64,000 bases of DNA from NCBI GenBank assembly GCA_933822405.4, contig CAKOGP040001936.1, forward strand, positions 186,001-250,000. The letters run 5' to 3'. A program made the translations under genes and the position numbers. The notes under the pieces are model-generated. The model ran no database searches. It had not been told where the DNA came from and worked only from the letters and a program-made list of their open reading frames with translations. The stretch comes from Cylindrotheca closterium. Its lineage: Eukaryota; Bacillariophyta; Bacillariophyceae; Bacillariales; Bacillariaceae. Below are positions 45,936 through 50,700 of this stretch, piece after piece (positions within the stretch are counted from its first letter, which is position 1; the number at the start of each line of letters is the position of its first letter).

Positions 45936-47778
45936 TCACTTTCTATTCTTTATTGCATCTCGGATTACTTTGAACCGCTGGACACATTGTTTTTTGGTTT
46001 TCCCCTCGACACTTTTGGCAATGCTTGCCCATCGCTCATTCTTGTCAATTGATGCAGGAAACTTCGCAAGAGCGGCTTGCAGCGCCTTGTCCTGTTCGTC
46101 AGACCAGGAATCTTCTGTCGAAGCACCATCTGTTGCCGGTGCATCTGTCGTTGCAGCAGCAGCATTTGTTCCATTTCGACTGGCCGTGGATGCCTTATTC
46201 TGGTTGAATGTTTCGATGCACTCTTCTCGCGTTCGAGGCATCTCTGGGTGGCAAACATTATTGATATATGAAGCAATTTGGTCCCAACGGTTTGCTCCTC
46301 CAGGAGGGAACTTTTTCACACCCTTTGCCAATGTAGACATTTCATCTTTTGTGAAGGGCTTCTTTTTGGGACCTGTGGCGCTTTTGTCCGAATTTGTCGT
46401 GCTTGCGACTACTACAGGTGCCTCTTCTGCCTCTTTTTCCATATTCTTCACATTGTTCGCGCGTTTCCGGACGAGCTCTAGCACTTCTCCTGGTGATGAC
46501 TTCGAGTCCAGGTTTGTGTTCAACTTGGTGAGTTGTTCCCGATTTAAAGTGGAACAAATCATATCGACTTCGTCTTCCAATGCATGTTCGGACTCCAGCA
46601 AAGATGCCAACGCTTCACTAACATGGCGTCTGAAAACCTGCTTCGTCTTTCGAAGTAGTTTCTTCTCCTTTTCGCGTTGTAGTTTTTCCTCTTTCTTCCG
46701 TTCTTCAACTTCCTTTTGCTTCCGCTCCTCCGCAAGCCGTGATTCCTCTTCTTGCCGTTTCTTCTCGAGCGCCTCTTCTTCTCGCCGTCTTTGTTTCTCT
46801 TCCTTCTCTCTGATAAGCCTTTGTTTCTCTTGTAGTAGACGTGGATCTGCCGCCATTGCCCTTTCCAGTAAAGTTGTGATTCTAGACAACTCCTGCTGCT
46901 TTAATTTCTTGGCGCGTTTGTCAATTTCCTTTTGATACCATCTTTTCTCATATCTGGATTCTGCCTGCTCCAGCTGGTCCTGCGTCTCTAATTCTCGCGA
47001 GGCCTGCATCCCAAAGTCTCTCCATGACTCGAAGTGAGCCCAATAGTCGTAGAACTCTAAGCGAGAAAAGGTTAGAACAAGACATCTCGTACTGTAACAG
47101 CGGATGGATCGAAGATAACTTACGATTTACTTCACCAATCGGTGTAGACTCGTCCCCCAATGAAAGTGGTTTCAGCATGCTAGTCCTGGAACTACGCGAT
47201 TTCCTTCTGTTGCTCTTCTTGTTTGAGGTCGGCAATAATCTGGCATCAAAGTGAAGGTTTCTTTGGAAGCAGCTGCCAAAATCCTCGAAGAAGTTGTCGG
47301 TTTTCTCATCTGGTATACTCTCGTCAAATGGCATCTCTGTAGAGTCGTAGGCAAGCTTTTGTGTGCTCAAAATATCGAAAGCAGCCTTCACTTTGAGGAA
47401 CACTGCATCTTCTTCTCCCCGACCTGACTTATCAGGGTGATATTTTAAGCAGGCTTTGCGATACGCCTTCTTGACATCGTCGGGAGACAAAGTGGCTTTG
47501 AAAGGCAGATGTAACACCTTGTAGTAATCCAAAGCGTCAAGATCTTGCTCCGAGAGGGAAAACAAGTCAATCGCAGGGGATTCACTTTCTTGGCTCTTGT
47601 CGTCGCTCTCTGAATCTTCATTTTCGTTGTCGTTGGGGTTGGAAGAAAAGTCGAAATCGTCGCTTAATGTGTGCACCGATTTGAATTCAGTAAAACCCTT
47701 TCCAACTGACTCAATGCAGATTGTTTCCAGGGTATCAGCCCAGTCCAAGGTAACTCCAGCCAGGGCAATCGACGGCAT
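45936..47778 (-). CDS. DNAJC2: Zuotin/DNAJC2-type ribosome-associated J protein
   Basis: Two exons on the minus strand, 47778-47124 and 47056-45936 (67-nt intron, GTAAGT ... CTTAG), give 591 aa. The J domain (about residues 80-150) has DYYKVLHLPF and the HPD motif in KYHPDKSG. Then comes the zuotin homology region, joined at the splice as VNQFYDYWAHFESWRDF. A long charged helix (about 270-370, rich in EEK/KRQ) matches the ribosome-binding middle domain. Two SANT/Myb domains close the protein (about 430-480 and 530-590: KPFTKDEMSTLAKGVKKFP and DSWSDEQDKALQAALAKFP). This is animal/plant-type architecture; yeast zuotin lacks the SANT pair. It helps Hsp70 fold nascent chains at the ribosome exit. 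Confidence 0.93.
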
Positions 47779-47917
47779 TCTTTTGTTGTGAGTTGTTGGG
47801 TGGTTTTGGGTCAATCCGTCAAACACCGTCAATGGTGAATGCGCACTATGTGCGCACAAAACAACTGCATTTGTCTGCGGATTGCAATTTTTGGTGAAAC
47901 AGATATGACATTGCGGG
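47779..47917. promoter_or_regulatory. Compact divergent promoter region
   Basis: Only 139 bp separate the ATGs of zuotin (47778, minus) and the HAD-methyltransferase-MDR gene (47918, plus). Both 5' UTRs and promoters must share it. No specific motif is recognised. Confidence 0.4.
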
Positions 47918-50700
47918 ATGACAGCAAAACAAAAGATGCACAAACCTTCCTCTTATCTCTTCATTGCAGCAATATTATGCTTACTTCGACCATCTGAGGC
48001 ATCGTCGTCGCATCGACCGATAGCTTTCTTGTTGGACGTAGACAATACGCTCTATGATGAATTGGACAGCGGGATCGAATCTCAAATTGTAAAGAACACA
48101 CATTCATACTGCAAAGAAAGGTTTGGAATGGAGAAGGAAGAAGCTGATGACCTTTTTCGACAGTTTGGATCCACAATGGAAGGTTTAAAACAAACCATTT
48201 TGAAAGGAAAGCTAGAATCTGAGGTTCACGAAGCTTTGGATGATTTTTATGCAACAGTTTACAAAAAGATCGACTACTCAAGTTTGCTGCTGGAATCGAC
48301 GGCGCAAGAGTCTTCGACTGGATACTCTATGACAAGAGACCGAAAGCAACTACGTCAGCTGCTCCGTTTCTGTCCGCATCCTATATGGATATCGTCAAAT
48401 TCGCCGAGCTGGCACGTTCGAAGGACACTTGAGGCCATGGGTCTTGCTGATATTCATTTTGAACGTTGTTTCACACCTGACCGACTCCCATTCTATCCTA
48501 CGAAGCATGACCCAATTCGTTTCTTTGGTGAATACTGCGAGGAATTGCTTTCCTACGCTCGATTGATCGTCTTTGATGATTCAAGCTGGAATCTTTCCCG
48601 CATATGCGAGAACTTTCCAAGAGCGGAAGGCGTACTCGTCTCGCGTCGAAATCCTTTGACTACCGCATGGCTTCGGACCGTTTTACTCGATCCTGAGTTT
48701 AAATTCGATCAAGTACAATACCTTGACTCAAAGAATGCCGTGGATCGAAAATCGATAAACTCGAATATCTGGAATGAAGTTGTAGCCAGTCTTCAAGGCC
48801 TTCGAAAACGTGAAGTACATATTGCAGATGTTGGCGCGGGGATTCTGTCCATGCTTGATCTCTTCCTTCATGGAGACGTCAGTAAAGGTCTAAACCCTCT
48901 TCTGATAGACACGAAGGGACCTTATTTCGTTCACTACACTGCCTACGAGTCAAATGCAAAGCTCTATGAAGCTTGCCACCAAAAGCTTCTTTCATGGGGA
49001 TTAACAGCACGAGAGAAATCGGAAAATGTGATCATCTACGAGGGACCGTCGGTACGAGTGAGACTCATTCTAGAAGACTTTGACAGGTCGCCACCAATTC
49101 CAACCCCTGATTTGATTGTTGGTTGCTGTTTCGCTGATTTGTTCGATCCTTCTCAACTCGTGCCATCGTTGATAAGGTCCTTTAGTCTTTTAGATTGTCA
49201 GCGCACAATCTTATATTTCCCCATTACATTTGAAGGCATTACCCAACTGTTCCCTCCGCAACCTTTTGAGTCGACCATCGACGGTACGATACCATCAGAC
49301 ACAGCTGCACTTGGTGTTTATTCAGAGGCACTTTCCAGAGACCTTGGACACAACTTAGATCCAGCGTTACTGCAAGATGAAATGGAACGACATGGTTTTT
49401 CCCTTCAGAGGAAAGGTGGGTCTATGTGGAATATCCATCATGATGTAAATCCCTACCTTTATATGTGCATGCTCTACTTCTTTGGAAGTGCTGCTGGACC
49501 AAAACTACAACACAATGGATTTGACGCACAAGGCTGGATACAAAGAATACGCAAAACGAATCCTCATATTCAAGTGTCGAACGTAGACTTGATGTTTCGG
49601 GTTGGAAAAAATCTCGATCACTGTCTACACAACACTGAATCTGACCTGGTAATGGAGGAAATCTATTTTGTCGGAACTAGAGACGTGATAACTCGCAAGA
49701 AGAGGATCCCCGAGCTCCTCCCAACACAAGTGCTAAGTAAGTACGAAACCTTGCGATGAAATCAGATCGCATATGTCGACTCAAGCATGCCCCAGTCAAA
49801 TCATCGCATTCTTTAATAAGTTCAGGGACAGAGTTGAAAATTTTTAATGGACAGTTTGACGACGCCGTACTTGACGCAACAATTGAAGACATGAAAGATG
49901 AGCGAATGGCGTACCCATTGTCGTATGGTTATTGCCTTGTCGGACACGTCATTCAGTGCGGAGATGCCGTGCCGAATGATCTTATCGGGAAACTTGTTTT
50001 TAGCTTCTCTCCACATGCATCCCATGTCGTCACTAATTTTGATAATATTCATGTCGTTCCAGATAATATTTCACCTGAAGATGCCATTTTCATGCCATCG
50101 GTGGAAACTGCTCTTTCGTTGATTCATGATGCCAGTCCTCGAATGGGAGAGAATGTCGCCGTGTTCGGGCAAGGATTAATTGGGCTACTAGTGACGGCTA
50201 TTCTCGGTACTCAAAGACAGACTTCGAATTCGGCAAAGTTTGGAGTGGTTACTGCGTTTGAGACTATCCCAACTCGCTTAATGGCTGCTGCACGATTCGG
50301 AGCTTCACAAGCACTCTTGCCTGGTAGCTTTAGTGGGCCTTTTGACGTTTCGATTGAAGTTAGTGGAAACTTTAAAGCACTTCAATCAGCCATAGATCTT
50401 ACAGCTGATGGTGGACGGATTATCGTCGGATCGTGGTATGGTAACTCCGCAGTAAATTTGAATCTCGGGATTGAGTTTCACCGGAGTCAGAAGACAATTA
50501 GGGCATCTCAAGTGAGCAAAATCCCCTTGCAATTGCAAAGTACATGGAACAAAGATAGACGATTTGAATTCACTTGGGAGCTAGTAAGGAACTTAAAGCC
50601 GTCGCGGATGCTGTCTAGAGTAACTGACATCAACGGTGGGAAAACTGCTTACGAAGCGCTTGATAGGGGTGAAGAAATCGCCATTGCATTCAAATATTGA
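47918..50700 (+). CDS. Three-domain fusion: HAD hydrolase, SAM methyltransferase-like, MDR oxidoreductase
   Basis: Two exons, 47918-49736 and 49796-50700, give 907 aa. The 59-nt intron (GTAAGT ... CCCAG) restores QVLIKSSHSLISSGTELKIF, a typical start of a zinc-type MDR domain. A signal-like stretch (residues 10-30) precedes the HAD domain, which has DVDNTLYDE (40-48), ISSNSP near 148 and IVFDDSSWN near 217, as in pyrimidine 5'-nucleotidases. The middle part has a SAM-binding-like HIADVGAGILSMLDL near 304. The MDR part carries VAVFGQGLIGLL near 728 and lacks the catalytic-zinc cysteine near SGTE, like BchC-type dehydrogenases. If unspliced, two frames overlap by ATGA at 49756. Substrates are unknown; the fusion is not one I recognise. 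Confidence 0.8.

Follow-up and report, generated by a model that had tools for sequence, protein, structure and literature searches.

A gene of the diatom Cylindrotheca closterium encodes, in a single chain, a HAD phosphatase domain, a class I SAM methyltransferase (MT) domain and an apparently zinc-less MDR domain, preceded by a hydrophobic leader. The fusion is genuine and broadly distributed among diatoms. Alignment and profile comparison identify its MT and MDR domains as relatives of two genes that lie in one widespread prokaryotic operon, together with a PTPS gene, a GT4 glycosyltransferase gene and, in many instances, genes related to riboflavin synthesis. The interpretation that we favour, with a confidence a little above even, is that the fusion is a three-domain enzyme of an undescribed GTP-derived pyrimidine/pterin pathway.

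Gene structure and the intron junction

The gene lies on the plus strand of the window, the whole stretch of 64,000 nucleotides that was analysed, between two minus-strand neighbours. The features are listed below, with the evidence for each in brackets.

45936-47943, minus strand: Zuotin/DNAJC2-like gene with DnaJ, zuotin homology and Myb/SANT domains, in two ORFs (domain matches)
47918..48013, plus strand: N-terminal leader of the HAD-MT-MDR fusion, aa 1-32, a hydrophobic stretch, putative signal peptide or signal anchor (leader hydrophobicity in homologues)
48014..48712, plus strand: HAD phosphatase domain, aa 33-265; the catalytic motifs D40/D42, S160, K196 and D220/D221 are all present (TIGR01993, PDB 7ef6, motif conservation)
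48713..49642, plus strand: class I SAM methyltransferase domain, aa 266-575, related to the operon MTs (AlphaFold, Foldseek, hhalign)
49643..49736, plus strand: first, N-terminal strands of the MDR domain, encoded in exon 1 (alignment to homologues and to the operon MDR profile)
49737..49795, plus strand: GT-AG intron of 59 nt, phase 1, at a position common to several relatives (splice motif, homologue alignment)
49796..50700, plus strand: exon 2, the remainder of the apparently zinc-less, BchC-like MDR domain, and stop codon (hhalign to operon MDRs, plasmid matches)
50787-53618, minus strand: gene for a ubiquitin-specific protease that has DUSP and MYND-finger domains; it and the fusion gene are convergent (domain matches)

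The Zuotin/DNAJC2-like gene probably contains an intron near 47060-47125. Its likely ATG, placed by eye at 47778, is about 140 nt from that of the fusion, and the two genes are therefore divergent and separated by a short spacer.

Two ORFs, 47918-49759 and 49756-50700, share an ATGA overlap, and excision of 49737-49795 (59 nt, GTAAGT...CCCCAG) yields a single 907-aa product containing QVLIKSSHSLISSGTE. The intron, the frame overlap and the length of the product had all been proposed in the initial annotation and are upheld by the sequence and by read-through of the junction in homologues. A protein search with the whole product returned 176 matches at E <= 0.001. Among the 120 of these that were listed, 105 cover all three domains, in agreement with the proposed order HAD-MT-MDR in one chain, eight lack most or part of the HAD domain and seven lack the MDR domain. 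MT and MDR are both covered by 112 of the listed homologues. In 105 of these the junction is uninterrupted (a strict pattern identified 74 and inspection by eye a further 31), and six of the 112 carry at this site an in-frame insert, which is read as the same intron translated. The full model of one insert-bearing database sequence, P0005, has a mean pLDDT of 84.3 and a pTM of 0.84, with three folded domains and an N-terminal helix (residues 2-21); pLDDT falls below 50 over residues 615-641, at the insert.

The best protein match, the public C. closterium protein P0001 (99% identity), is missing 16 conserved residues where the MDR domain begins, a gap that fits the use of a later acceptor near 49825. 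Three transcript-derived proteins are continuous across the junction and retain SLISSGTELK, namely P0002 (MMETSP, 84% identity), P0035 (MMETSP/EukProt) and P0036 (taxid 33649, Thalassionema nitzschioides). For this reason the acceptor at 49795 is better supported than that of P0001, and the public annotation is probably wrong at this site. The seven MDR-less entries among the 120 end at the donor site, whose bases are translated as SK, GT or GK, or up to about 40 residues beyond it. They therefore have the appearance of mechanical ORF calls and not of separate genes, and their end points indicate that the intron position is common to several relatives. Together with the ATGA overlap, these seven ORFs are what could be cited for two genes, or for a dicistronic transcript, that in silico splicing has wrongly united. 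Such an error has a close to negligible probability, as transcript-derived and insert-free relatives run through the junction and the second ORF (49756-50700) by itself is devoid of the first MDR strands.

The leader and the HAD domain

A hydrophobic 12-mer is present in the leader of 75 of 91 homologues scored, as against 222 of 1820 control segments, and the signal-like N-terminus originally described is thus substantiated. Scoring was confined to the 91 of 263 proteins with an initial M and a leader of 15-130 residues ahead of motif I.

The HAD domain matches the pyrimidine 5'-nucleotidase equivalog TIGR01993 with an E value of 6.1e-17 and 62 bits, short of the cut-off of 142.9, and scores below the cut-off of the Pfam Hydrolase model; the nearest solved chain is an XMP phosphatase (PDB 7ef6, E 1.8e-4). 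The catalytic residues are conserved almost without exception in homologues: D40 in 105/105, D42 in 106/106, S160 in 118/119, K196 in 119/120 and D221 in 120/120. By its motifs I-IV, with the catalytic acids, Ser/Thr and Lys, the domain is a member of the HAD superfamily phosphatases. It shares the motif I DxDNTLY and all acidic motifs with the nucleotidases represented by TIGR01993 and 7ef6, but differs from them in its sub-cut-off score, in being fused and in its leader. The domain is likely to be a 5'-phosphate monoesterase. No ORF with the diatom HAD profile was detected in 92 prokaryotic loci and four further ones (L107-L110).

The methyltransferase domain

No Pfam family matches the second domain at E <= 1. 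Its AlphaFold model (pLDDT 93.3) retrieves 358 PDB chains at E <= 0.001 in Foldseek, and SAM methyltransferases head the best 50, from 1.3e-9. Comparison by hhalign with haloarchaeal operon MTs gives a probability of 99.5 and an E value of 2.4e-22, at an identity of about 21-25%. The modelled Rossmann methyltransferase fold and the GxG and acidic ribose-binding motifs are those of a class I SAM methyltransferase. A scan of genome contigs with the MT profile gave 24 stretches that fit a pattern, none of which was confirmed.

Motif I of this domain reads GAGILSM, in which the usual last glycine is absent, and the domain is much more diverged from its prokaryotic relatives than is the MDR domain. 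Both points would suit a fusion in which one domain, most probably the MT, is catalytically dead and acts as a scaffold or substrate binder. This we regard as improbable, as D-x-G-x-G, the ribose-binding Glu and the blocks GCCFADL, PITF and PSD are near-invariant in about 120 sequences.

The MDR domain

The third domain resembles MDR alcohol dehydrogenases in structure and sequence matches. The nucleotide-binding glycines G731/G733/G736 are conserved, and a Foldseek search with the P0005 model retrieves 6ie0 (E 2.9e-19, TM of target 0.77); the GxGxxG fold and the modelled MDR structure identify the domain as a member of the MDR superfamily. Residue 616 is Ser/Thr in 113/113 sequences and GYS/GYC replaces GHE. 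These sites are, on our assumption, the catalytic zinc-ligand positions (the Cys before GT/SD and the His-Glu of GHE), and the domain is accordingly predicted to be zinc-less and not a zinc-dependent alcohol dehydrogenase. Beta 2 ends in an acidic residue (D or E) in 115/115 sequences, which suggests a preference for NAD. Aligned with operon MDRs by hhalign, the domain gives an E value of 4.8e-68 and 34% identity across 323 columns; on plasmids, the highest-ranking matches come from haloarchaea (up to 37.3% identity) and belong for the most part to MDR-PTPS-GT4-MT operons. The diatom domain also retains SWYG, FHRS and SQVS, signatures of the operon MDRs of Chloroflexi/haloarchaeal type.

The BchC-like character noted initially is confirmed inasmuch as TIGR01202 (BchC, bacteriochlorophyllide dehydrogenase) is the best NCBIfam model: the MDR subfamily style is the same, but the score of 46.8 bits is far short of the curated cut-off of 291.25. 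This top rank is the point in favour of an enzyme of chlorophyll-like pigments, in which the MDR would act in the manner of BchC on a chlorophyll side chain. We judge such a role very improbable, given the failed cut-off, the scores of two operon MDRs (60.6 bits for a haloarchaeon and 78.6 for Desulfolinea) and the presence of RibA, RibD and PTPS as operon neighbours; the pigment-like substrate that had been suggested is not supported by the score or by these riboflavin/pterin-type neighbours.

Distribution of the fusion

An organism is shown for 21 of the 120 listed homologues, and all 21 are diatoms, both centric and pennate; for P0036 this was confirmed by taxonomy and for the other 20 it is our own assignment. 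The initial view referred to algae; the named carriers support the presence of the fusion in diatoms, not in algae more widely. A search of the protein database with an alignment of six MT rows gave 27 matches, none with an organism name, and no prokaryotic name occurs among the 120 listed of 438 matches to the MDR alignment. The host genome (47.6 Mb in 572 contigs) contains no second full copy of exon 1 of the fusion, and a single weak match was found to the HAD region (E 0.0011).

A widespread prokaryotic operon

The operon is often laid out as RibA/RibD - MDR - PTPS - glycosyltransferase - MT, accompanied by a CDP-alcohol transferase, and its proteins are annotated as 'zinc-binding alcohol dehydrogenase', '6-carboxytetrahydropterin synthase' and 'class I SAM-dependent methyltransferase'. 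Of 72,556 plasmid records searched with the diatom MT, seven match, all from haloarchaea and two from the same Haloarcula strain, and in 7/7 an MDR gene lies within 2 kb of the MT. At four plasmid loci inspected gene by gene, MDR is followed by PTPS, then by a glycosyltransferase (except in L002) and then by MT; the gene table of L005 has no PTPS, and a 33-bit PTPS match is present there. Natronorubrum, Rhizobium, Peteryoungia, Streptomyces, Thiodictyon and Methylosinus have the full run as well, and among haloarchaea it is complete in, for example, Haloarcula vallismortis (locus L014). In Halobellus, Haloarcula pelagica and Rhodobacteraceae SC52 the run is devoid of GT4. Genes for GTP cyclohydrolase II or IIa, a RibD family protein, CDP-alcohol phosphatidyltransferase and creatininase are found near the operon in several instances. 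The Natrarchaeobaculum locus L007 contains MDR and GTP cyclohydrolase IIa, yet shows no match for PTPS, GT4 or MT.

When genome contigs were scanned with the MDR profile, at least 593 relatives were confirmed, of which the best 80 were kept, a set skewed to haloarchaea as the first row of the profile is haloarchaeal. Within these best 80 of at least 593 loci, MDR was recorded in 79, PTPS in 70, GT4 in 58, MT in 56, CDP-alcohol transferase in 51, RibD in 29, RibA in 23, an LPG-flippase-like protein in 19 and GCH IIa in 12. The MT is on the same strand as the MDR and no more than 6.5 kb away in 55/79 loci of this set, and RibD abuts the MDR upstream in 26/79. Some contigs are short: at least 4 kb of downstream sequence is available in 62/79 loci, and 50 of these 62 have the MT. 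When the diatom MT profile was run against 92 loci, all 78 domain matches (78/78) were operon MTs. On an Anaerolineales contig (L059:1143-2501), RibA and RibD are joined in one ORF with the operon MDR directly downstream; the ORF was identified by eye and its RibD part by blastp.

The diatom shares with this operon homologous MDR and MT domains and, elsewhere in its genome, a PTPS of an operon subtype; a RibD-type protein there resembles that of the operon, but less specifically. The diatom differs in that its MT and MDR follow a HAD domain in one fused chain, the gene order is altered, GT4 was not found and signal-like leaders are present. The operon in turn resembles the upper pathway of riboflavin and F420 in often having GTP cyclohydrolase II/IIa and a RibD-type reductase, but adds PTPS, MDR, MT, GT4 and CDP-alcohol transferase; HAD phosphatases also act in that upper pathway. 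No description of the operon or of the HAD-MT-MDR fusion was found in the literature searched, which lay mostly outside subscription journals.

Partner genes in the diatom genome

The host genome has a single match to PF01242 (PTPS), at C267:391971-392336 (L094:1405-1875). The protein, of 156 aa, has a hydrophobic leader and is of the sequence type MIAHS...FGPAGGMHGATY. Its identity is 44.7% to the Thiodictyon operon PTPS and 39.5-41.2% to those of Rhizobium, Peteryoungia and Streptomyces, as compared with 21-23% for Desulfolinea and Haladaptatus and at most 31% (over 74 residues) at loci of the other type. By these identities the diatom PTPS belongs to an operon subtype, the Rhizobium/Streptomyces type. 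Among its 20 plasmid matches, 15 adjoin an MDR gene (12 by coordinates and three by locus inspection) and three, from Streptomyces, have no adjacent MDR; H71 and H74 are outside both counts. The protein has HGAT in place of the canonical HGH, as do its Rhizobium/Streptomyces-type relatives, which we take to mean the loss of one zinc-binding His. A canonical QueD or BH4 enzyme was considered and rejected: within COG0720 (PTPS/QueD) the diatom protein shares PF01242 but falls below the cut-offs of QueD (31.5 of 89.25 bits) and 6PTHBS (34.1 of 125.5 bits), and its chemistry may differ from that of QueD. For one subfamily, PTPS-V, the function is reported to be unclear (PMC5041015). The same PTPS subtype occurs outside the MDR operon on the Streptomyces plasmids L109, L111 and L112, in the vicinity of genes for MBL-fold hydrolase, cupin, GPP34 or discoidin proteins, which constitutes a second genomic setting for this subtype.

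PF01872 (RibD_C) has three matches in the host, of which L104 and L105 were compared and L106 was left out. Against operon RibDs, L104 (316 aa, with a leader) reaches 120 bits and L105 no more than 65.5. Neither passes an NCBIfam cut-off, and the link of L104 to the operon RibDs is suggestive only, because the general ribD_Cterm model gives 118.5 bits; L104 could be a riboflavin enzyme. Like the PTPS, L104 has a signal-like N-terminus. GTP cyclohydrolase II is matched by a 628-aa frame, presumably RibBA, and by one other sequence. A candidate operon GTP cyclohydrolase, L102, was rejected, as it reads to us as URC1-like. An operon-type GT4 was not found in the host genome, where the best matches (44.5 and 42.6 bits) are generic; L095, tried as a candidate, appears instead to be SQD2-like. 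The fusion and the partner genes are on separate contigs (C392, C267 and C1).

Origin of the diatom set

An MDR tree of 100 sequences, built without two duplicate plasmid loci and the truncated L068, unites the 11 diatom rows in a single clade (100/100). This clade has a stem of 1.41 and is placed next to the Chloroflexi sequence L085 (97/80); bootstrap values had not yet converged, and the composition of several diatom rows is deviant. The diatom MDR thus groups with MDRs of Chloroflexi/haloarchaeal type and the diatom PTPS with the Rhizobium/Streptomyces type, a mismatch that argues against one simple operon transfer. The set is either a mosaic or derived from a donor outside the sample.

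A proposed pathway

That MT and MDR are related to two genes of one operon strongly supports the initial proposal, in which the multi-enzyme performs steps of a single pathway. In the GTP-derived route that we favour, GTP cyclohydrolase II/IIa and a RibD-type reductase would give a ribityl-diaminopyrimidine phosphate or a pterin formed from that compound, and the PTPS-like protein, by analogy with its family, would rework the side chain. The fused HAD, possibly a eukaryotic-type nucleotidase recruited for dephosphorylation, would take off the phosphate, as nucleotidase-type HADs remove 5'-phosphates; the MT would methylate the freed compound, and the zinc-less MDR would oxidise or reduce a side-chain hydroxyl or carbonyl with NAD(H). 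Because the fusion, the PTPS and L104 all begin with a hydrophobic leader, these steps may run in or on secretory membranes. The presence of GT4 and CDP-alcohol transferase in the operon suggests that the prokaryotic end product is glycosylated and perhaps lipid-linked; in the diatom the route apparently ends sooner or relies on different enzymes.

Several observations count against this pathway. A leader for the secretory route is odd for enzymes that use SAM and NAD, and the separate contigs, the missing GT4, the lack of a diatom-type HAD at the loci scanned, the differing affinities of MDR and PTPS, the unspecific RibD link and the low MT identity also weigh on that side. An alternative is that MT and MDR derive from the operon but came to serve, together with a HAD, another pathway peculiar to diatoms, and that the host PTPS and RibD are unrelated to it. 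The dispersal over contigs, the absence of GT4, the mixed affinities of MDR and PTPS and the unspecific RibD link would all agree with such a recruitment; however, the sole PTPS match in the host is of an operon subtype and has a similar leader, as has L104, and the diatom MDR keeps the SWYG, FHRS and SQVS signatures. We rate this alternative as unlikely, albeit deserving of serious weight.

A broader proposal, which is offered tentatively and with a confidence clearly below even, extends the GTP-derived pathway to all the organisms concerned. Operon and fusion would together mark out a cofactor or signalling/redox metabolite that is derived from GTP and has not been described, namely a ribityl-pyrimidine or pterin bearing a methyl group (glycosylated, and perhaps lipid-anchored via the CDP-alcohol transferase, in prokaryotes), in haloarchaea, Chloroflexi and proteobacteria and across diatoms, where its maker would be HAD-MT-MDR on secretory membranes.

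Biological meaning

A conserved diatom enzyme is thereby tied to a conserved archaeal and bacterial operon for which no description was found in the literature searched. Since MT and MDR are fused, they would act in one route, and the gene content of the operon indicates the class of molecule to look for. The results suggest that the labels 'alcohol dehydrogenase', 'bacteriochlorophyllide dehydrogenase' and 'threonine dehydrogenase' carried by these proteins mislead. The fusion may point to a new small molecule in major primary producers.
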